61,759 nt of DNA. Origin: Parvularculales bacterium. GTDB taxonomy: Bacteria > Pseudomonadota > Alphaproteobacteria > JAPOUT01 > JBAJNM01. The position numbers and the translations under genes are program-made. Positions within the stretch are counted from its first letter, which is position 1. Every line of letters starts with the position of its first letter. Below are positions 1 through 34,183 of the stretch, piece by piece. The notes below the pieces were generated by a model. The model had not been told where the DNA came from. It did no database searches and was given only the letters and a program-made list of their open reading frames with translations. The stretch spans positions 1 to 61,759 of the forward strand of contig JBAJNM010000008.1 in assembly GCA_036881865.1 (NCBI GenBank). Direction: 5' to 3'.

Positions 1-197
1 TCCTTCTGTAGACGCTTCAGCTCGCGCAACTGGTCCGTCCCCATCCCGCCATACTGCTTCCGCCAGCGATAGTATGTCTGTTCCGTGACCCCGACCTGGC
101 GGATTGCGTCAACACGACCTCTCCCCTGGCCGACCAGAACCTCAATCTGGCGTAGTTTGCTAACGATCTCTTCGGGTTTGTGCCATCTCTTTCCCAT
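1..197 (-). CDS. IS3-family transposase OrfA, N-terminal part (runs off the window)
   Basis: This reverse-strand frame starts with ATG at 197 and codes for about 65 residues before the window edge. The protein begins MGKRWHKPEEIVSKLRQ and contains GVTEQTYYRWRKQYGG, the helix-turn-helix signature of IS3-family OrfA proteins. It continues into a leucine- and lysine-containing stretch that would start the usual leucine zipper. GAGGAG lies just upstream of the ATG (about 6 bases) as a ribosome site. OrfA normally binds the IS ends and is fused to the catalytic OrfB by a -1 frameshift; OrfB would lie outside the window. It is divergent from the island ORF at 285. Confidence 0.85.
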   Translation of the reverse strand, partial: MGKRWHKPEEIVSKLRQIEVLVGQGRGRVDAIRQVGVTEQTYYRWRKQYGGMGTDQLRELKRLQK

Positions 198-246
198 ACT
201 GGTACTCCTCCTGTTTCATATATTTACTAACATTCAGGGTGGACCA
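1..246. mobile_element. End of an IS3-family insertion sequence (partial)
   Basis: The left edge of the window lies inside an insertion sequence. Its OrfA reading frame points left, so the terminal inverted repeat should lie upstream of that gene. The sequence TTCAGGGTGGACCA ends at 246; read inward on the reverse strand it starts TGGTCCACCCTGAA, and the terminal TG/CA is typical of IS3 elements. The exact end is inferred. The other end and the target duplication are outside the window, so the group within the family cannot be fixed. Confidence 0.7.
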
Positions 247-284
247 GTTAATAGGGGGAAGGTCAGAATGTAACGGAATTTCCT

Positions 285-1589
285 ATGAAAGAAGAACCGC
301 CGCATGATCAAGAATTATGTGAGATGTTGATCAACGCTGATAGGCAAGGGAAATTGATAACTCAGTTATGTAATTTTGATCGCCGTGGCGTGTCCAGCAT
401 CACTGAAATAATATCTAATCTAAATAATGATGGGAAAATCGCGTTACTTGCAACAAGGAATTTGGATGCCATAAAAAATCTTAGACATGATGATTTTTGG
501 TCAATTCAAAATTCTCTGTCCGAGATCATTCCAACATTAAAATGCGAGACAACAGCACTTCTCCATTTTGTGAGGACTATGGTCGAAAAGGCAGGAAACG
601 ACCTAGCGGCATATTCGCCTGTATCATCGCTCACAAAATGGTGTAGCCATAACTCTGCACAGGCGTATGAAATCATAGAAGGCTCAAGGCAGTCGGACGA
701 ACTGTGTCTGCAATATTGTGTTTGCGCATTAGAGGGATTGGGAAATTTTAAACTAATCAGAGAATTTGCCAGCAATGATGATACGGCTTTATCAATAATT
801 GGAATAAGAGCCATGGGGCTATTGGGTAATGAATTACCAGTGATATCAGCCAAAGAATCTATAAAAAAATGTCTTGAAACGTTGAATAATTTAGATAACG
901 GCGAAGCCAGACTCACATCTATAGAAAGCGCATTCCGAATTTGGAATGAGAATAAGAAGATAGGCCATTACTTACAAACCCCATTTATCAAAGCGGTCAC
1001 CGCCTCTAACGTCGATGAGGAACGACAAATGCTGGTATATTGCCTGTATCGTTATGTTGGTGGGCTCACAGAAAAGTCCATAGAGTCAATTCTTAAACAT
1101 GCAACTAACAATTCAGAAAATTCTGAGGCGTTACTACGGATGCTAGATCAGGCGTTAGGTGGTTTTGATGAGCGCTGGAATTTTGAGCAGGTTGTAGACG
1201 TTTTTAACTCTCATATGCCACATGTATCAGATAACTTTGATATACGCGACTTATCCTATTTCTTCGATATGGTTTGGAACGCTCCAAGTAATACATCCTA
1301 TGTGTTTTCATCCTGGCTTTATCTCGGAGATATACAACAATGTACAAAATTAGCATATGCGATTGATGAAAAAGGTGGTAACGACGTCACCTTATCATTT
1401 CTTAAACAACATGTCCCAGAATATGCCAATGATCAAATATTCATAGCGAAAAAATGCATTGGATTTCTTTGGAAGAATGAAGTTACAGCTGCTTCAATAC
1501 TACTATCCCTATATAAATACAGCTCAAAGGAAGCGCAAACAGTTATTGAGGAATTATTATTTGATCCATTGTTAGTAAGCTATAATTAA
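285..1589 (+). CDS. Hypothetical alpha-helical (HEAT-like) protein, first part of an interrupted gene
   Basis: This ORF codes for 434 residues with no family I recognise. The sequence is almost entirely predicted helix: runs such as LCLQYCVCALEGLGNFKLI and SIIGIRAMGLLGNEL have the spacing of HEAT-like solenoid repeats. There is no signal peptide or membrane segment. Base composition is clearly more A+T rich than the core genes from 3954 on. An in-frame TAG at 252 lies only 6 bases inside from the IS end, so the 5' end may have been trimmed by the insertion. No good ribosome site precedes ATG 285. The frame ends at TAA 1587-1589 but stays open after it in the same phase (codons for ELRDY, then ATG 1605), so it was probably one gene with the next ORF. 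The ending DPLLVSYN looks like the inside of a domain. Confidence 0.6.
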   Translation: MKEEPPHDQELCEMLINADRQGKLITQLCNFDRRGVSSITEIISNLNNDGKIALLATRNLDAIKNLRHDDFWSIQNSLSEIIPTLKCETTALLHFVRTMVEKAGNDLAAYSPVSSLTKWCSHNSAQAYEIIEGSRQSDELCLQYCVCALEGLGNFKLIREFASNDDTALSIIGIRAMGLLGNELPVISAKESIKKCLETLNNLDNGEARLTSIESAFRIWNENKKIGHYLQTPFIKAVTASNVDEERQMLVYCLYRYVGGLTEKSIESILKHATNNSENSEALLRMLDQALGGFDERWNFEQVVDVFNSHMPHVSDNFDIRDLSYFFDMVWNAPSNTSYVFSSWLYLGDIQQCTKLAYAIDEKGGNDVTLSFLKQHVPEYANDQIFIAKKCIGFLWKNEVTAASILLSLYKYSSKEAQTVIEELLFDPLLVSYN

Positions 1590-1604
1590 GAACTACGCGA
1601 CTAT

Positions 1605-2021
1605 ATGGAAACTCAAAGAACCAGTCGACCTAAACATGTTGGTGCCCTTGTTGGGCGAGTTTTGAATCGACAAGATGATTATCTTAAGGGAATAAGACCG
1701 TCCGACGATCTTGTAGAGTTTTATCCATCTACAGAACAACGACGTGCAGCTGCCCTCAAAGATCAAGAACGAAATAGAGAAATTCAAAAGATGGCTCGTG
1801 AGCAATCTATGTTTGCTGTTATTGCATCAACTGAGACTTTGCTTTATGGGCGTATGGCATTTACGACCGTACACCGCGAGGATGGCAAAACTTCTTCAAG
1901 GGTAGCACCATTACGTGAAATATCCGTCACCACTGAATTACCACGACTGATGGTAGTTGAACCCGCAAGATTCCAGCAGATGATTTCATCGTTTAGAGTT
2001 GAAAAAAGAGTCCCACAATGA
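1605..2021 (+). CDS. Hypothetical protein, probable C-terminal part of the gene at 285
   Basis: This ORF codes for 138 residues and is not recognised. It is in the same reading phase as the ORF ending at 1589, separated only by TAA and five sense codons. I infer that the two were a single protein of about 578 residues. The segment has a charged helix around residues 44-67 (STEQRRAAALKDQERNREIQ) and then an alpha/beta part ending MVVEPARFQQMISSFRVEKR. No Shine-Dalgarno sequence precedes ATG 1605, which fits an internal methionine better than a true start. Its stop overlaps the start of the next gene as ATGA (2018-2021), so the two are translationally coupled. Confidence 0.55.
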   Translation: METQRTSRPKHVGALVGRVLNRQDDYLKGIRPSDDLVEFYPSTEQRRAAALKDQERNREIQKMAREQSMFAVIASTETLLYGRMAFTTVHREDGKTSSRVAPLREISVTTELPRLMVVEPARFQQMISSFRVEKRVPQ

Positions 2022-3730
2022 AAATAATATTGAAAGAATATCTGGCTTCGCTAAGAGAGCGTGGTGATCTTGATCATGCTGTTCTACCTAATCTGCTGTC
2101 TGAACTTGGCCTAACGGTTTTGAATACACCAATGATTGGTACACGCCAGAACGGTGTAGACATAGCGGCAGTAGGAAAAATAAGAGGGGAGGATGATAAG
2201 AAATGTCTATATCTATTTTGTATAAAAGCCGGAAATATATCAAGAAACGATTGGTCAGCTAGTCCGCAATCCGTTTATCAGGAATTAAATCAGATAAGGG
2301 ATGTTTATATACGCAGCAATGTCTCCAGTGAACACACAGATTTGCCAATAAAAATCTGTCTGTGTTGTGGTGGAGAGCTAGAAGAAACAATTCTCATGGA
2401 CTGGGCTGGATACACTGAAAACTACTCAAGTAATAAAATTAATTTTGAGTTATGGAACGGAGACAGATTAGCAGAATATATGATGAAAGTCTTTCTAGCA
2501 CGGGAATTATTGGAGGACGATTTGCGCAGCAATTTTCAAAAAGCCGTTGCGACTGTCACTGAACCCAGTACTTGCTACGCCTATGCCTTTAGGTTTTTGA
2601 AAGCGCTATTATCTCTAGAGTTTGATAACATCAAACAAAGGCTATTTAAACTCAGGCAGGCATATATCTGTATTCATACTATCAATGGCTGGGCAATTGA
2701 AGCTGGCAACTTAGAAAGCATTTACACAATTTCAGAGTTGGGCTTATTACTCAGTTGGGATGTCATACGAAAGGAAAAAATTCCTAATAGAAGAACTAAA
2801 CATTATAATGAGCTTGTAACTATTCAATTGCAGTTTATTCATCTCTATATTCAAATGTCTGAAAAATATTTCAGAAAAACCACTTACCCATATGCAGATA
2901 AACTACATGCTTTATCAGTGGCGGTAAAGTCACGCGAACCTGTTGATGTCAATTTGGCGATGTTTGAATTAGTTGGCAGGTTGGCTATACGCGGTATTTG
3001 GGCCAACCGTCTTGCAAAATTGATACAAGATGAAAATGAAGAAACCACAAAACATCTCACTGATTTAATTCAAAAATCTATTGATACAATCGTTGATGTA
3101 ATCAACAATAACCCAATTTTGAATAGCCCGTTAAAAGACGATCACATGATTGAAATGGCATTAATTATGATGCTTGCTCAACAAACCAATATGGTCGACA
3201 GGTTTTTGGGCTGGCTTCATAATGTCGGAATCCTTACTTCCGGGGCGCTACTTACGAACGGGCCATATCCTACATGTATTAGAGATTACGCTGACCTTTT
3301 ATCGCACCCAGTTGATGCGAGTGAGGATTATCGCAAGGAGGCATGCGCGGGCAGCATTCTTTATCCATTTTTGTTTCTCTGGTTACACAACATTAACAAA
3401 GAATCAGATATTGCTACATTTGTCTCTAGACTATCAGATAGTATTCCTGATTGTACACATCAAGCATGGTTGCCAGATGAGAAAACAGACGACCAGTTGT
3501 GGTCCGGTGGAACAAATCACGGTGTCTGTATAATAGGGCTGAATCCAAAAATAGGACGGGAGAAGATGTCTGAGGCGTTAAATAATGCCTACGACAAGTA
3601 TAATGCGATTAGTGAAATAAGCGCAATGAAACGCAACTTGTACCCGTTACTGTTAACCGCCTGCAGGCACTACAGAATGCCAGTACCTCCCACATTTTGG
3701 TTCAGTGGACCGCTTTCATTGTTCCGATAG
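2018..3730 (+). CDS. Hypothetical protein with PD-(D/E)XK nuclease-like N-terminal domain
   Basis: This protein has 570 residues. The first 80 or so look like a restriction-endonuclease fold: an N-terminal helix with Glu29 (LLSELGL), a GTRQNGVDIAAVG turn carrying Asp48, then a strand LYLFCIKAG with Lys70. Mrr-like and other PD-(D/E)XK nucleases have the same order, G-x-x-x-G-x-D followed by (E/Q)-x-K. Here the middle acidic or Gln position is Cys68, so activity is uncertain. The remaining 490 or so residues are helical and not recognised; they include a hydrophobic stretch ILYPFLFLWL near residue 445. It overlaps the upstream ORF by four bases (ATGA). Location beside an IS, low G+C and a nuclease-like domain suggest a mobile defence gene, but that role is inferred. 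Confidence 0.6.
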   Translation: MKIILKEYLASLRERGDLDHAVLPNLLSELGLTVLNTPMIGTRQNGVDIAAVGKIRGEDDKKCLYLFCIKAGNISRNDWSASPQSVYQELNQIRDVYIRSNVSSEHTDLPIKICLCCGGELEETILMDWAGYTENYSSNKINFELWNGDRLAEYMMKVFLARELLEDDLRSNFQKAVATVTEPSTCYAYAFRFLKALLSLEFDNIKQRLFKLRQAYICIHTINGWAIEAGNLESIYTISELGLLLSWDVIRKEKIPNRRTKHYNELVTIQLQFIHLYIQMSEKYFRKTTYPYADKLHALSVAVKSREPVDVNLAMFELVGRLAIRGIWANRLAKLIQDENEETTKHLTDLIQKSIDTIVDVINNNPILNSPLKDDHMIEMALIMMLAQQTNMVDRFLGWLHNVGILTSGALLTNGPYPTCIRDYADLLSHPVDASEDYRKEACAGSILYPFLFLWLHNINKESDIATFVSRLSDSIPDCTHQAWLPDEKTDDQLWSGGTNHGVCIIGLNPKIGREKMSEALNNAYDKYNAISEISAMKRNLYPLLLTACRHYRMPVPPTFWFSGPLSLFR

Positions 3731-3739
3731 CGATATTCG

Positions 3740-3760
3740 GGGAGAGCTGTATCCTCTCCC
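3740..3760 (+). terminator. Hairpin after the island operon
   Basis: GGGAGAG (3740-3746) and CTCTCCC (3754-3760) form a perfect 7-bp stem with a 7-base loop, starting 9 bases after the stop at 3730. No T-run follows, so this may only stabilise the transcript end. Confidence 0.4.
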
Positions 3761-3875
3761 GGCGTTCTCGTACACTTGACAAGTACGTCAATTAACTAAC
3801 TAACTGCGGAGTAGAAATTTATAAATGATTCTTTACATCATCCGTCCATAGCTGTCTGTGTTCATCATCAAAAAT

Positions 3876-3950
3876 GGCTCTCTATGGCGGAATCGAAGTA
3901 CCCACATGCGGATTTAAGGCAGATTGCAATCCGCCGGACTCAAACTCCAT
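3876..3950. other. Intergenic stretch with a hairpin and weak tRNA-Leu-like sequence
   Basis: The forward strand contains TGGCGGAATCG followed by GCGGATTTAAGG, which recalls the D-arm and anticodon arm of a tRNA-Leu, but no acceptor or T-arm pairs. Within it GCGGATT (3908-3914) and AATCCGC (3928-3934) form a 7-bp stem. It may be a tRNA remnant, an attachment-site scar at the island boundary, or chance. No gene is seen between 3731 and 3953. Confidence 0.2.
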
Positions 3951-3953
3951 TTA

Positions 3954-4436
3954 TCACTTAGTTTTTTTGCCTTTACCCTTGGAAAGAGGCACACCATAGA
4001 GTTCCAGACGATGGTCCATAAGGCGGTAGCCTAATTTGCGGGCAACCTCCTTTTGCAATTCCTCAATCGTGTCATCGCGAAACTCGACAACCTTACCCGA
4101 CTGCAAATCAATCAGATGGTCATGATGCTCGTCGGGTATGGCTTCATAACGCGACCTGCCATCGCGAAAATCATGGCGTTCCAGAATCCCCACCTCTTCA
4201 AACAGACGCACGGCCCGGTAAACGGTCGCCAGAGAAATCCGGCTATCCAAAACGCTCGCCCGCCGGTGCAGTTCTTCTACGTCAGGGTGATCGTCAGCCT
4301 CAGACAACACCTGCGCTACAATCCGGCGCTGGCCGGTCATGCGCAACCCTCTGGCAACGCACCGTTCTTCCAGAGACAGTTTGCCCGCTTTGTTCTTCTG
4401 GTTTTTTTCTTTTTCTGCTTTTACGTTTTTTACCAT
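3954..4436 (-). CDS. fur: Fur-family metal-responsive repressor (Fur/Mur type)
   Basis: This 160-residue protein is a winged-helix Fur-family regulator that binds DNA when loaded with iron or manganese. It has an N-terminal lysine-rich tail of about 20 residues, GLRMTGQRRIV at 30-40, the recognition helix ISLATVYRAVRLFEEVG at 67-83 and the dimerisation-domain metal site HHDHLIDL at 104-111. Glu118 and His142 are at the expected positions. The structural zinc CxxC pairs of gamma-proteobacterial Fur are missing, as is usual in alphaproteobacterial Fur/Mur, and the Irr HHH haem motif is absent. Its start overlaps the tsaB stop by 7 bases, so it is the last gene of the nfu-rutE-tsaB-fur operon. 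In many relatives miaB follows fur; here the A+T-rich island does. Iron versus manganese specificity cannot be told from sequence. Confidence 0.9.
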   Translation of the reverse strand: MVKNVKAEKEKNQKNKAGKLSLEERCVARGLRMTGQRRIVAQVLSEADDHPDVEELHRRASVLDSRISLATVYRAVRLFEEVGILERHDFRDGRSRYEAIPDEHHDHLIDLQSGKVVEFRDDTIEELQKEVARKLGYRLMDHRLELYGVPLSKGKGKKTK

Positions 4437-5212
4437 CCGCTCACCCTCTGCGGTAACCGCGCATCAGGAGGACGCAAATAAAGCGGCGACGCACTTTCTT
4501 CACTCTCCTCATTACCCGCAACGCGCCGTTGGAACAGATCATAATTGGATGCCATAACACGGGTATCGGGCACACCGGACGCTTCGGAAAGGGTAATATA
4601 TCCCTCCCGCAGCCACTCTGCCACCCTGTCCGGCACTCCATCCGCCGATATGATTCGCAGGCGCTCAACGCCCTCGCCTACCAAAACGGTGCCACGCTTA
4701 AGAAGATCCGTCACCTCCTGCGGGCTTGCCATGAAAGGAGCCTGCGCCCCACTTTCAACGCTCTTTTCAGAAGAGGGCTGGTACGGAAAAAGCTGAGCAT
4801 AAAGAGCGCCCCTCGGGGCATTCAACAGAACCATAATATGTTCTTCGTGAGCCCTTGGTTCGTAATCATAATCATGATCAACAGACCCATAATGAACCTT
4901 GTGGCCGACAAGGATGGCCTCAAACACGCTGACTCCCCTTACGGGTATATCGTGTGCCAGCGCCAACCCGCGCGCGGCGGCAAGGCCAACGCGCACTCCG
5001 GCAAATGTCCCCGGTCCGCGAGTGACGACGATGGATTCAAGATCGTCATAGGCCACCGCCGCCTCTGTCATGACATCCTGCACCATGGGAAGAAGCGCCT
5101 CGGCGTGACCGCGCCGCATCGGGGTGTTGCGGTAAATCAGGGAGCCGTTCTCTCCCTTGCACAGGGCTACGGAACACGCCCCTCCGCAACTTTCTAACGC
5201 CAGAATGTTCAT
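4430..5212 (-). CDS. tsaB: tRNA threonylcarbamoyladenosine biosynthesis protein TsaB
   Basis: This 260-residue cytoplasmic protein belongs to the ASKHA-fold TsaB family. TsaB is the partner of TsaD in making the t6A modification at position 37 of ANN-decoding tRNAs. The N-terminus MNILALESC and the motifs GHAEALLPMV (35-44) and GPGTFAGVRVG (66-76) are diagnostic. The C-terminal half is poorly conserved, as usual. It lies 36 bases after the nitroreductase gene and overlaps fur. Many relatives carry rimI between tsaB and fur; here there is none. Confidence 0.93.
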   Translation of the reverse strand: MNILALESCGGACSVALCKGENGSLIYRNTPMRRGHAEALLPMVQDVMTEAAVAYDDLESIVVTRGPGTFAGVRVGLAAARGLALAHDIPVRGVSVFEAILVGHKVHYGSVDHDYDYEPRAHEEHIMVLLNAPRGALYAQLFPYQPSSEKSVESGAQAPFMASPQEVTDLLKRGTVLVGEGVERLRIISADGVPDRVAEWLREGYITLSEASGVPDTRVMASNYDLFQRRVAGNEESEESASPLYLRPPDARLPQRVSGW

Positions 5213-5248
5213 GCTGTTACGTACAGGAAAATGCCAAACGAATTGGCG

Positions 5249-5842
5249 TCAAACGATCTGGCAAGCTTTTTCAAAATCAAGCCGGGGCGAACGGGGATGT
5301 ATCCCCTCGGGGTCGCCGTATCCTATATTGCACAGGAAGTTTGCCGTGAAGCGGCCATCGGGAAAATATGCCTTGTCCACCGCTGCGGAGTCAAAACCCG
5401 ACATGGGGCCGCAATCAAGACCCAAGGCGCGCGCCGCCAGTATGAAATATCCCCCCTGAATGGAACTGTTGCGAAAGGCCGTCTGTTCGGCAAAGTCTTC
5501 ATTGCCTGAAAACAGAGCATCCACACCCTCCATAGCGGGAAAGATATCAGGCAAGTGTTCATAAAAGCGCTTATCGTAAGCCACAATGACGGTTGCCGGA
5601 GCGGCCATGCTTTTTTCCTGATTGGTCTCCATCAGCATGGGGCGCAGGCGTTCTTTTTCCATTTTTGTCACGACAAAGACCAGCCGCGCCGGAGAGCAGT
5701 TGAAACTTGTCGGCGGCCACTTCATCAAATCATAAAGGGCGCGCATCGTTTTTTCAGTAATCCGGTCAGACGTCCATCCGTTATGGGTGTGCGCCCCGCT
5801 AAACAACTGTTCCCGCGCCGCTTCAGAAAGGGGTTCAGCCAT
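5249..5842 (-). CDS. RutE/HadB-type nitroreductase (putative malonic semialdehyde reductase)
   Basis: The 197-residue protein matches the RutE-like branch of the FMN nitroreductase family along its length: HNGW near residue 20, LMKWPPTSFNCSPAR near 39-53, FRNSS near 128, GLDCGPMSGFD near 145 and NIGYGDPEG near 172. RutE reduces malonic semialdehyde or similar aldehydes with NAD(P)H during pyrimidine breakdown, but no other rut genes are nearby. A general nitro or enone reductase role is therefore equally possible. Its ATG directly follows the nfu stop (TGAATG), so it is co-translated in the operon with nfu, tsaB and fur. Confidence 0.85.
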   Translation of the reverse strand: MAEPLSEAAREQLFSGAHTHNGWTSDRITEKTMRALYDLMKWPPTSFNCSPARLVFVVTKMEKERLRPMLMETNQEKSMAAPATVIVAYDKRFYEHLPDIFPAMEGVDALFSGNEDFAEQTAFRNSSIQGGYFILAARALGLDCGPMSGFDSAAVDKAYFPDGRFTANFLCNIGYGDPEGIHPRSPRLDFEKACQIV

Positions 5843-6403
5843 TCAGACGGCCCGTACTTCGGTTACTTCAGGGACGAAATGGCGCAACAGATTTTCAATG
5901 CCATGTTTCAGGGTCTCGGTCGCACTGGGACAGCCCGCACACGCGCCCTGCATGTGAAGATAGACGACGCCCTCCTCAAAGCCATGAAAGAGAACATCAC
6001 CGCCATCCTGAGCGACGGCGGGACGTATTCTGGTATCCAGTATTTCCTGAATGGCGGTGGCGGTTTCAGAATCGGCCCCGCCATGCTCGGCATGAGCACT
6101 GCGCGCTTCATCGTCCAGCAAAAGAGGCTGCCCGGCCGAGAAATGGTCAACAATCGCCATCAAGACGGCCGGCTTGAGTTGTTGCCAGTCATCCCCCGAC
6201 TCAGGCGCTTTCGTCACGGTGATGAAGTCGGCGCCAAAGAAAACACCGGTAACGCCATCAATGGCGAATAATCTTTCGGCCAAAGGGGAACGGCGGGCCG
6301 CTTCTGGATCAGGGAAATCCGCCGCGCCGGAGCCCAGGACTTCACAGCCCGGCAAGAACTTCAATGTCGCCGGATTAGGCGTGGATTCGGTCTGCACAAA
6401 CAT
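5843..6403 (-). CDS. NifU-like iron-sulfur cluster carrier (Nfu family)
   Basis: This 186-residue protein has the two-domain layout of Nfu scaffold/carrier proteins. The N-terminal Nfu_N domain begins MFVQTESTPNPATLKFLPG. The C-terminal NifU domain carries AQDGGDV near 131 and the cluster-binding CAGC at 155-158. Nfu proteins receive Fe-S clusters from the assembly scaffold and pass them to client enzymes in the cytoplasm. It is the first gene of a four-gene operon ending in fur, which links cluster supply and iron regulation. The start is fixed by the conserved N-terminus; GGGAG lies 8 bases upstream. An overlapping ATG at 6410 is out of frame. Confidence 0.92.
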   Translation of the reverse strand: MFVQTESTPNPATLKFLPGCEVLGSGAADFPDPEAARRSPLAERLFAIDGVTGVFFGADFITVTKAPESGDDWQQLKPAVLMAIVDHFSAGQPLLLDDEARSAHAEHGGADSETATAIQEILDTRIRPAVAQDGGDVLFHGFEEGVVYLHMQGACAGCPSATETLKHGIENLLRHFVPEVTEVRAV

Positions 6404-6729
6404 GGGGCATACTCCCTAACGGGTTAAAACATAAGGCTCTTGAATGGCATTCACGGATGGCATCATCGTACCTGATTGGCCGAATTTCTTCAACGGGATA
6501 TTTGTGCGGGGTGATGGAGCACCTTCGATGATGGCGGATATCTAACAAATTTGTGACCTGTAATTGATGTGGTCACACCATGATTATGGGATAATGTAAT
6601 AATCACAGATGTGCCGGGTCTATGGCATCCGGCACTAATCCAGAAGGAGGCCGGATCACCGCAGGCGCGCCTGTGGCATGGTCAGAAGCCAGCCTGTCTT
6701 CTATAGAAGTAAACAAATGGAGAAAGAAC
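6404..6729. promoter_or_regulatory. Divergent intergenic region with inverted repeats
   Basis: This gap holds the promoter region of the nfu operon (leftward) and of the small secreted protein at 6730 (rightward). TGTGACC (6552-6558) and GGTCACA (6571-6577) form a perfect 7-bp inverted repeat with a 12-base spacer, a possible operator. It is too widely spaced for a CRP/FNR site. A GATAAT -10-like box lies near 6590. GTGCCGG (6611-6617) and CCGGCAC (6629-6635) form a strong hairpin in the likely leader of the 6730 gene. CAGGCGCGCCTG near 6663-6672 is palindromic. Confidence 0.4.
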
Positions 6730-9636: not shown

Positions 9637-10878
9637 GTGTCGGGCATGGTCCGTAAAATCGGGGTAAAAACAACCAAGGGAAGCGCCAAAACCCCTAAGG
9701 GGAAGGTAGCGTCCGGCAGCAAGGGCGGAGGCGGCAAGGCGTCCGTATCCTCCAAATCCGTGCGCAAAAAGCCAACCACAAAGAAGAAAGTCATGGCCAA
9801 AAAAACAGCGGCTAAAAAGCCGATCGCTAAAAAAGCGGCCGTGAAAAAGGCCGTCACGAAGACATCTGCCGCTAAAAAAGCGGCGGTGAAATCCACGGCT
9901 AAAAAAACAGCGGCTAAAAAAACCGTAGCCAAAAAGGCGGTTGCCAAAAAAACGGCCCCTAAAAAGGTAGCCACCAAAAAAGCCGTAACCAAGAAGGCCG
10001 CGAAGACCGCCAAGAACCCGGCGGTGAAAAAGGCTGCCGCCAAGACATCTGCCACTAAAAAAGCGGCGGTGAAATCTGCCTCTAAAAAAACAGCGGCTAA
10101 AAAAACCGTAGCCAAAAAGGCGGTTGCCAAAAAAACGGCCGCTAAAAAAGTAGCCGCAAAAAAAACACCGGCCAAAAAAGCCACATCAAAAAAGACAGCA
10201 CCCAAAACAGCAGCCAAAAATGTTGCGGCGAAAACAACAGATGCCAAAACACAAACCCGGAAAGCGCCGCCTCAAGCAGCCGCCAAGCCCAAGACCACTC
10301 CCCCAGCCGCGCAAGATAGCGAACAGAGGTTCACCGCTCAGGAGCATATCGTCTACCCAGCCCATGGTGTCGGGCAGATTATCAACATCGACAATAAGGA
10401 GATTGCGGGCATCAAACTGGAATTTTACGTCGTTAATTTTGAGCGTGACAAAATGACATTGCACATTCCCACCGGCAAGGCGGTTCAGGCGGGAATGCGT
10501 AAACTGGCAAACCCCGAGACCGTGAAGGCGGCTGAGACCAAACTGCAAGGACGGGCCCGCATCAAGCGCACCATGTGGAGCCGCCGTGCTCAAGGATATG
10601 AAGCCAAAATCAATTCGGGCAATTTGCTTGCCATTTCTGAAGTGGTGCGCGATTTATTCCGCTCCGACAGCCAGCCCGAGCAGTCTTATTCCGAGCGCCA
10701 GCTTTATGAGGCGGCCCTCAACCGCATGGCTTGCGAGATAGCGGTTATCAAGGATATGACCGTTGAGGAAGCCGTTGAGTATCTGGAGGGTATTTTAGGC
10801 CGTGCCAGCGAGGTGGCCGAAAATGCGGAAAAAAAAGCGGCCGATGGTGCGGCATCCACCGATAAGGCCAAGACGTAG
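9637..10878 (+). CDS. CarD-family transcription regulator with histone-H1-like N-terminal tail
   Basis: The 413-residue protein has two unlike halves. Residues 1 to about 225 are almost pure Lys/Ala/Thr/Pro in KKTAAKK-type repeats, like the tail of histone H1 and bacterial H1-like proteins. From about 232 (FTAQEHIVYPAHGVGQI) to 395 it is a full CarD/CdnL domain, with the RNA-polymerase-interacting Tudor-like part and the helical DNA-binding part (MWSRRAQGYEAKINSG). CarD proteins bind the RNA polymerase beta subunit and stabilise the open promoter complex. The tail should bind DNA nonspecifically, but that is inference. The start is GTG 9637 or ATG 9646; neither has a strong ribosome site. The gene sits between fdxA and the sigma factor, as in relatives. 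The tail region holds a 114-bp direct repeat. Confidence 0.9.
   Translation: MSGMVRKIGVKTTKGSAKTPKGKVASGSKGGGGKASVSSKSVRKKPTTKKKVMAKKTAAKKPIAKKAAVKKAVTKTSAAKKAAVKSTAKKTAAKKTVAKKAVAKKTAPKKVATKKAVTKKAAKTAKNPAVKKAAAKTSATKKAAVKSASKKTAAKKTVAKKAVAKKTAAKKVAAKKTPAKKATSKKTAPKTAAKNVAAKTTDAKTQTRKAPPQAAAKPKTTPPAAQDSEQRFTAQEHIVYPAHGVGQIINIDNKEIAGIKLEFYVVNFERDKMTLHIPTGKAVQAGMRKLANPETVKAAETKLQGRARIKRTMWSRRAQGYEAKINSGNLLAISEVVRDLFRSDSQPEQSYSERQLYEAALNRMACEIAVIKDMTVEEAVEYLEGILGRASEVAENAEKKAADGAASTDKAKT
9859..9972 (+). repeat. 114-bp direct repeat in the carD tail, copy 1
   Basis: This stretch, starting AAGACATCTGCC, recurs almost unchanged at 10042-10155 (183 bases later, a multiple of three). It codes for the KTSAAKKAAV to KKVA block of the lysine-rich tail and points to expansion by in-frame duplication. 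Confidence 0.85.
10042..10155 (+). repeat. 114-bp direct repeat in the carD tail, copy 2
   Basis: This is the second copy of the repeat at 9859-9972, differing at only a few positions. Because both are in frame, recombination between them would change tail length by 61 residues without breaking the CarD domain. Confidence 0.85.
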
Positions 10879-10918: not shown

Positions 10919-11782
10919 ATGATCCGGTTACGAGTGAGCGGACACATGGTGAGTGAAGAAGCAAATATCTGGCGTAGTTGCCGTTTTTTAATCAGACGTG
11001 CAACCCAGGCGTCTATCCTGACTCCCTACCGAGAGAGGGAACTGGCCCGCCTGTGGATTACGGAGCAAGACGAAACCGCTCTTCACGAGCTGGTCAATTC
11101 TTATTTGCGCCTTGCTATCGCCATGGCTAAGCGTTTTCGACATTATGGTTTGCCCGTTAGTGATCTGGTGCAGGAAGCCAGCGTGGGTTTGATGCAGGCG
11201 GCGCAACGTTTTGAGCCGGACCGCGGCGTGCGATTTTCGGTTTATGCGGGTCTGTGGATTCGCTCTACGATTCAGGATTACGTGTTGCGTAACTGGTCTA
11301 TCGTACGCACCGGTACGACAAAAGCGCATAGAGCGTTGTTTTTTAACCTCAATCGTCTGAAGGCTCTTCTAAACGAGACCGGCGATATGCCTCTTAGTCT
11401 GCAAAACAGGCAGGAGATTGCGCGCCGGTTACAGGTGCCTCCGGCTGAGGTGGATGCGATGGAGGCGCGCCTTTCAGCACGGGACCAGTCGCTGGATACC
11501 CATCAGGATATTTTGCATTGCCCACAGCCTCTGCCGGAAGAGACCGCCATCGAAAACCACGACAGAGCCGTATGGCGTGACTGGTTGTATTCGGCTCTCA
11601 AGCAGCTGAGCGAGCGGGAGCAGATTGTCATACGCTTGCGGCGTCTTCAGGAGGAGACCGTCACTCTGGAACGTCTGGGAGAATATCTGGGCGTTTCAAA
11701 ACAGCGTGTGCGTCAGATTGAGCAACGGGCGCTGGACAAACTGTGTGCAGCTTTGCCCCAATATTTAACCGCCGGACTTTGA
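10919..11782 (+). CDS. RpoH-type alternative sigma factor (sigma-32 family)
   Basis: The 287-residue protein is a group 3/RpoH-like sigma factor. Region 2 is YLRLAIAMAKRFRHYGLPVSDLVQEASVGL through RFSVYAGLWIRSTIQDYVLRNWS. The RpoH box follows as VRTGTTKAHRALFFNLNRLK. Region 4 has LSEREQIVIRLRRLQ and the helix-turn-helix LERLGEYLGVSKQRVRQIEQ. RpoH2-type factors in alphaproteobacteria direct oxidative and heat stress genes. Its position just after carD and near fdxA matches that kind of locus. ATG 10919 has no clear ribosome site; ATG 10946 or GTG 10949 are possible starts that would remove 9 or 10 residues. No anti-sigma gene is visible next to it. Confidence 0.88.
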   Translation: MIRLRVSGHMVSEEANIWRSCRFLIRRATQASILTPYRERELARLWITEQDETALHELVNSYLRLAIAMAKRFRHYGLPVSDLVQEASVGLMQAAQRFEPDRGVRFSVYAGLWIRSTIQDYVLRNWSIVRTGTTKAHRALFFNLNRLKALLNETGDMPLSLQNRQEIARRLQVPPAEVDAMEARLSARDQSLDTHQDILHCPQPLPEETAIENHDRAVWRDWLYSALKQLSEREQIVIRLRRLQEETVTLERLGEYLGVSKQRVRQIEQRALDKLCAALPQYLTAGL

Positions 11783-33298: not shown

Positions 33299-34183
33299 AT
33301 GAGAACAAAAGTGAGTATCTTTCTGGGGTGTCTGCTTTTATTGTCTGTCTTGGTATACCTCCTTCAGGCGCAAGATGATAATGCGTGGTTGGGAACTTTT
33401 TGGCGTACGGCCACGGTGGCGGATGTTGAAGCCGTTCTTGAGGGTGGAGCGAATATCAACGCCCGCGATGAGGCTGGATGGACGCCGCTGCATTGGGCAG
33501 CTGTCGCGAGCCAAACACCAGTGGTGGTGAAACTGTTGCTGGATCACGGGGCCGATATAGAAGCCCGTGACAAGGATGGCGTAACGCCCTTGCATTGGGC
33601 AGCGGCAGCTATCTTTAACCAAACACCAGCGGTGGTGAAACTACTGCTGGATCACGGGGCCGATATAGAGGCCCGTGATGCGGGTGGAGAAACACCCCTG
33701 CATGTGGCAGCCAATAACGCAACACCAATGATGGTGAAAGTATTACTGGATTATGGAGCCGATATAGAGGCCCGTGATAAGAATGGCTTAACGCCCCTGC
33801 ATTCGGCGCATGTGGCGGCTAGTAACGCAACACCAGTGATGGTAAAAGTATTACTGGATCATGGAGCCGATATAGAGGCCCGCAGTAAAAATGGCTCAAC
33901 ACCCCTACATCAGGCGGCAGCTAATAGCGAAACACCGGCGGTGGTGGAAATGTTACTGGATTATGGGGCCGACATAGAGGCCCATGATAAGAATAACTCA
34001 ACGCCCCTGCATATAGCAGCGCTCAAGAGCAAAACATCGACAGTAGTGGAGGTGTTACTGGACCATGGGGCAGATGGCACGGCGCGGGATAAAGATGGAA
34101 AAACACCTTTTGATCTCATTCAGGACAATGAGACTCTTAAGGATACCAAAGCCTATTGGCGGCTTAACGAGGCTCAATATTGA
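33299..34183 (+). CDS. Secreted ankyrin-repeat protein (long paralogue)
   Basis: The 294-residue product starts with a signal peptide (MRTKVSIFLGCLLLLSVLVY, cut near LQAQ). A half repeat (FWRTATVADVEAVLEGGANI) leads into six full ankyrin repeats and a capping repeat (KTPFDLI). The repeats are unusually alike, with LLLDHGADIEARDK and TPLHWAA cores. One unit has an extra two residues before the helix (AAAAIFNQTP), another two (SAHVAASNATP). Signal peptide, first half repeat and C-terminal cap match the protein at 13045-13518. It is expected to act outside the cytoplasm as a binding protein. It stands alone between the pterin dehydratase and the PQQ-type dehydrogenase; CAAGGA precedes the ATG. 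Confidence 0.92.
   Translation: MRTKVSIFLGCLLLLSVLVYLLQAQDDNAWLGTFWRTATVADVEAVLEGGANINARDEAGWTPLHWAAVASQTPVVVKLLLDHGADIEARDKDGVTPLHWAAAAIFNQTPAVVKLLLDHGADIEARDAGGETPLHVAANNATPMMVKVLLDYGADIEARDKNGLTPLHSAHVAASNATPVMVKVLLDHGADIEARSKNGSTPLHQAAANSETPAVVEMLLDYGADIEAHDKNNSTPLHIAALKSKTSTVVEVLLDHGADGTARDKDGKTPFDLIQDNETLKDTKAYWRLNEAQY

Follow-up and report, generated by a model that had tools for sequence, protein, structure and literature searches.

Olokun is a described two-gene anti-phage system, which published work on E. coli and Pseudomonas islands includes in its lists of defence systems (PMC10121019, PMC12629846). A 2026 review names the system and gives its mechanism as unknown (PMC12926258). 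A literature search for a stated Olokun mechanism found none in the papers covered. The two proteins, OloA and OloB, are represented in PADLOC as PDLC03925/PDLC03926. Shedu SduA (PF14082), a defence nuclease of the PD-(D/E)XK type, forms a single-gene system.

The window, that is the whole stretch of 61,759 nucleotides that was analysed, contained three consecutive plus-strand open reading frames near its start (285–1589, 1605–2021 and 2018–3730). The first two lay in one frame with a read-through of about 578 codons, confirming the view in the preliminary description that the three frames are likely two genes. Three separate genes were ruled out by the frame and by the OloA of relatives, which identified the first two frames as one interrupted gene. 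The ATGA overlap said to tie the genes together was present and was also kept in relatives. The GC content was 39.5% at positions 268–3730 and 51.6% from position 3954 to the window end, so the reported difference in base composition from the neighbours was reproduced. Upstream, the end of an IS3-like insertion sequence occupied about positions 1–267, with the start of its orfA at 3–197 as a minus-strand open reading frame. Other copies in the same genome stopped matching at query positions 265–269, placing the end of the element at about position 267, approximately 18 bp before the oloA start codon. The contig stops within this element. Downstream of oloB, the opposite strand encoded a FUR regulator, a TsaD-family protein, a nitroreductase and NifU, which are ordinary chromosomal genes. 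The locus had been called IS-flanked, which holds for the upstream side but not for the downstream side. No RNA families were found at window positions 1–5000.

Elsewhere in the window, a CarD-family transcription factor (9637–10878, plus strand; CarD_C, 6.8e-22) had a roughly 210-residue Lys/Ala-rich N-terminal tail resembling histone H1/HC2 (HC2, 3.4e-16). The fusion of CarD with an HC2-like tail looks unusual. A sigma-70-type factor (10919–11782) adjoined this gene. A further plus-strand open reading frame (33299–34183) contained tandem repeats of roughly 100 bp, with a unit resembling ankyrin repeats.

Profile searches with Pfam and NCBIfam gave no model for either protein of the operon, in agreement with the earlier statement that they match no recognised family; PADLOC, however, has models for both. 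OloB matched the PADLOC OloB profile at 2.8e-163, with residues 1–562 aligning to profile positions 1–551 of 556. Both OloA pieces matched PADLOC OloA (7.1e-38, profile positions 39–455; 7.1e-23, positions 473–594), together spanned positions 39–594 of 596, and adjoined oloB. The proposed defence module was thus recognised as an anti-phage system, but not as an undescribed one; a new system was ruled out by the OloA and OloB matches. Since oloA did not encode one intact protein, the locus is, as judged from sequence, a decayed member of the Olokun system.

Relatives were scattered sporadically over phyla and plasmids. Plasmids searched by tblastn yielded 34 records, each covering at least 80% of OloB, and 72 loci, some in MAGs, came from GTDB genomes scanned with the help of a profile. 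The GTDB loci spanned Proteobacteria, Cyanobacteria, Bacteroidota, Acidobacteria, Verrucomicrobia and others. The genome scan with a single sequence as the query returned no relatives. Within the class of the window, 4 of 385 genomes matched, one of them marginally, and full-length OloB was present in 3/385, including the window's own genome; the other genomes of the same order (n = 3) had no OloB match. The nearest full-length relatives had an OloB 57–59% identical to that of the locus. In nearly all of 73 relatives, oloA was directly upstream of oloB with a short, mostly ATGA overlap. The preliminary description had held that consistently core, non-mobile homologues would speak against its proposal; the relatives were instead often on plasmids, and their sporadic distribution ruled out a core gene. 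A phage-borne origin was rejected as well, with no match in the phage collection and one matching record in the viral contigs.

The plasmid neighbours of relatives included a CD-NTase with a ThiF protein, TIR, SIR2, AbiEii, NACHT, TA and IS genes, and CBASS-type and restriction-modification genes were also found nearby. PADLOC scans of the neighbours matched retrons, type I specificity subunits, methyltransferases and AbiE, as a listing of the families present around relatives and not as an enrichment figure. Horizontal acquisition of the operon is part of the explanation that we consider best. A divergent enterobacterial form of Olokun (L004 at 4096–6674, L015 and L081–L083) had an OloA of only 300 aa, the counterpart of the C-terminal half in the common form, and covering only profile positions 313–589.

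The intact oloB gene (2018–3730, plus strand) encoded 570 aa. Its AlphaFold model had a mean pLDDT of 93.3 and a predicted core in the order alpha-beta-beta-beta-alpha-beta, as in restriction endonucleases (helix 17–29, strands 32–36, 49–53 and 63–70, helix 86–100, strand 111–117). In this model, D48 directly preceded the second strand and K70 ended the third. The absence of a restriction-endonuclease core had been named as evidence against a nuclease; such a core was predicted. In an hhalign comparison, OloB residues 1–165 (2018–2512) aligned with 30 Mrr_cat domains with a probability of 85.9 (E 5.2e-6), the 86% link to Mrr being one pairwise comparison. Mrr against UPF0102, a known relative of Mrr, gave a similar value (83.7), while a thioredoxin control gave 3.7 and the C-terminal part of OloB against Mrr 0.15. 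Against the UPF0102 and Shedu profiles, OloB gave no hhalign signal. The alignment paired D48 with the Mrr Asp, K70 with the Mrr Lys, C68 with the Mrr Gln and D19 with the first-helix Glu of Mrr, and set the OloB stretch WNGDRLA on the IDGxxLA stretch of Mrr. These results suggest that OloB starts with a predicted Mrr-like PD-(D/E)XK domain, in accordance with the PD-(D/E)XK-type start with D48 and K70 that had been proposed. No nuclease family exceeded the Pfam curated cut-off in any of 67 members. The remaining approximately 400 residues (166–570; 2513–3727) were modelled as a helical superhelix with no assigned family, matching the earlier picture of a nuclease-like start fused to helical residues. 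Foldseek with the full OloB model found no nuclease because the helices dominated; only helical repeat proteins were retrieved, none with E ≤ 0.001.

Column counts showed E14, D19, D48 (the motif II Asp), K70 (the motif III Lys), G72 and R76 to be invariant in 67/67 OloB sequences, from a relative set that was partly seeded on the GVD motif, so that D48 was partly selected for. Sets free of this seeding (a 14-sequence tblastn set and two profile-found relatives) agreed. Position 68 was occupied by Ser (22), Thr (17), Val (14), Cys (8), Ile (3), Leu (2) or Ala (1), and never by an acid, Gln or Asn; across the family, OloB thus has no Glu, Asp or Gln two residues before the Lys. Cys68 had been thought to weaken the nuclease assignment, but it does not do so in the way supposed: none of the 67 relatives has an acidic residue there, and all of them keep D48 and K70. 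For the same reason, Cys68 is, by the aligned sequences, a family trait and not decay of this copy. A domain without the usual E/Q-x-K residue could be catalytically dead, or could bind nucleic acid without cutting. Olokun may be an Mrr-clade nuclease system that lost the motif III Glu/Gln family-wide, with D19 and/or E14 substituting and a fast-evolving HEAT sensor in control; we regard this as slightly less likely than not. It is unlikely that the N-terminal domain of OloB is instead a dead, DNA-binding PD-(D/E)XK fold, with OloAB blocking phage by binding rather than cutting: the motif III position never holds E, Q, D or N, as such a fold would allow, but the invariance of D48, K70, E14, D19 and R76 is more than pure binding would need.

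For OloA, the AlphaFold model of the protein from relative L016 (pLDDT 88.3) matched the PP2A PR65 scaffold in Foldseek (E about 5e-4), and HEAT_2 was detected in 11/60 members (best 2.3e-6). The model and these profile hits indicate that OloA is a HEAT solenoid, as the preliminary description had recognised. Pairwise identity decreased from OloB residues 1–165 (51%) through the rest of OloB (32%) and the OloA C-half (27%) to the OloA N-half (22%), and in 99.9% of 1,485 pairs OloB was the better conserved of the two proteins.

In homologues, oloA was a single open reading frame of about 565–580 aa. At the locus, the corresponding frame (285–2021, plus strand) contained one TAA (1587–1589), which splits the gene into 434 and about 143 codons. 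In all eight of the nearest relatives, one uninterrupted OloA frame aligned across the position of the stop. The cut-off OloA would lack the C-terminal 143 residues, including the conserved LLYG and ELPRL stretches. The simplest reading of the stop is recent inactivation. The operon promoter was probably lost too, with the IS lying 18 bp upstream of the oloA start, and the closeness of the IS3-like element to oloA makes it likely that this copy is silent or dead. It is improbable that the Olokun copy is intact and the stop a mere error of sequencing or assembly. The interruption is a lone one of the substitution type, the frame is otherwise open and the draft genome is in 89 contigs, as an error would have it; the OloA of the locus, however, was 34–40% identical to relatives whose OloB was 57–63% identical, which is slightly under the 47% average for such pairs and would fit relaxed constraint. 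It is very doubtful that the 434-aa and C-terminal OloA pieces are made separately and reassemble into a working system, since OloA is one protein in every near relative, the IS lies directly upstream and no clear ribosome site was seen by eye ahead of the in-frame ATG shortly after the stop, even if that ATG, the intact oloB and the otherwise uninterrupted oloA would permit it. In L054, L061, L075, L084, L011 and L023, oloA or oloB was likewise shortened or interrupted, in L011 by an IS3 element; Olokun decay may be common among relatives.

Together, we consider it probable, with moderate confidence, that the locus is an acquired Olokun operon that was recently disabled by the oloA stop and probably also by the IS, and that in intact copies OloA would be a sensor or adaptor and OloB an Mrr-like nuclease effector. 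The fast-evolving HEAT-repeat solenoid of OloA may face a variable phage trigger with its N-half, while the C-half, the sole part that the short OloA of enterobacteria retains, would hold OloB. The active site of the OloB nuclease domain would comprise D48, K70 and probably D19 and/or E14, and its helical superhelix would dock OloA. On meeting a product or a DNA intermediate of the phage, OloA may release or assemble OloB, upon which nucleic acid would be cut. We infer the complex formation, trigger, substrate and cleavage of this scheme. An Mrr-like domain in OloB would be a first clue to the mode of action of Olokun, and its combination of named invariant residues with a variable HEAT partner yields a specific hypothesis that could be tested with a handful of point mutants. 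The locus contributes a further Olokun copy, which is disabled; of more use is the comparison across the family, where the Mrr link and the general loss of the motif III acid are the points of interest.

The locus agrees with Olokun in both proteins, gene order, overlap and lengths, and in OloB over the full length. Unlike the usual Olokun, its oloA has an in-frame stop and an IS end directly upstream. The Mrr catalytic domain (PF04471) aligns with OloB 1–165 at the Asp and Lys positions and at the C-terminal G-x-x-L-A stretch. In contrast to Mrr, OloB has no Gln/Glu at the second position ahead of the Lys, falls below the Pfam threshold, and adds a 400-residue helical part and the OloA partner. 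Shedu SduA is likewise a defence nuclease of the PD-(D/E)XK type, but it has no profile similarity to OloB in hhalign, and Shedu consists of a single gene whereas Olokun consists of two.
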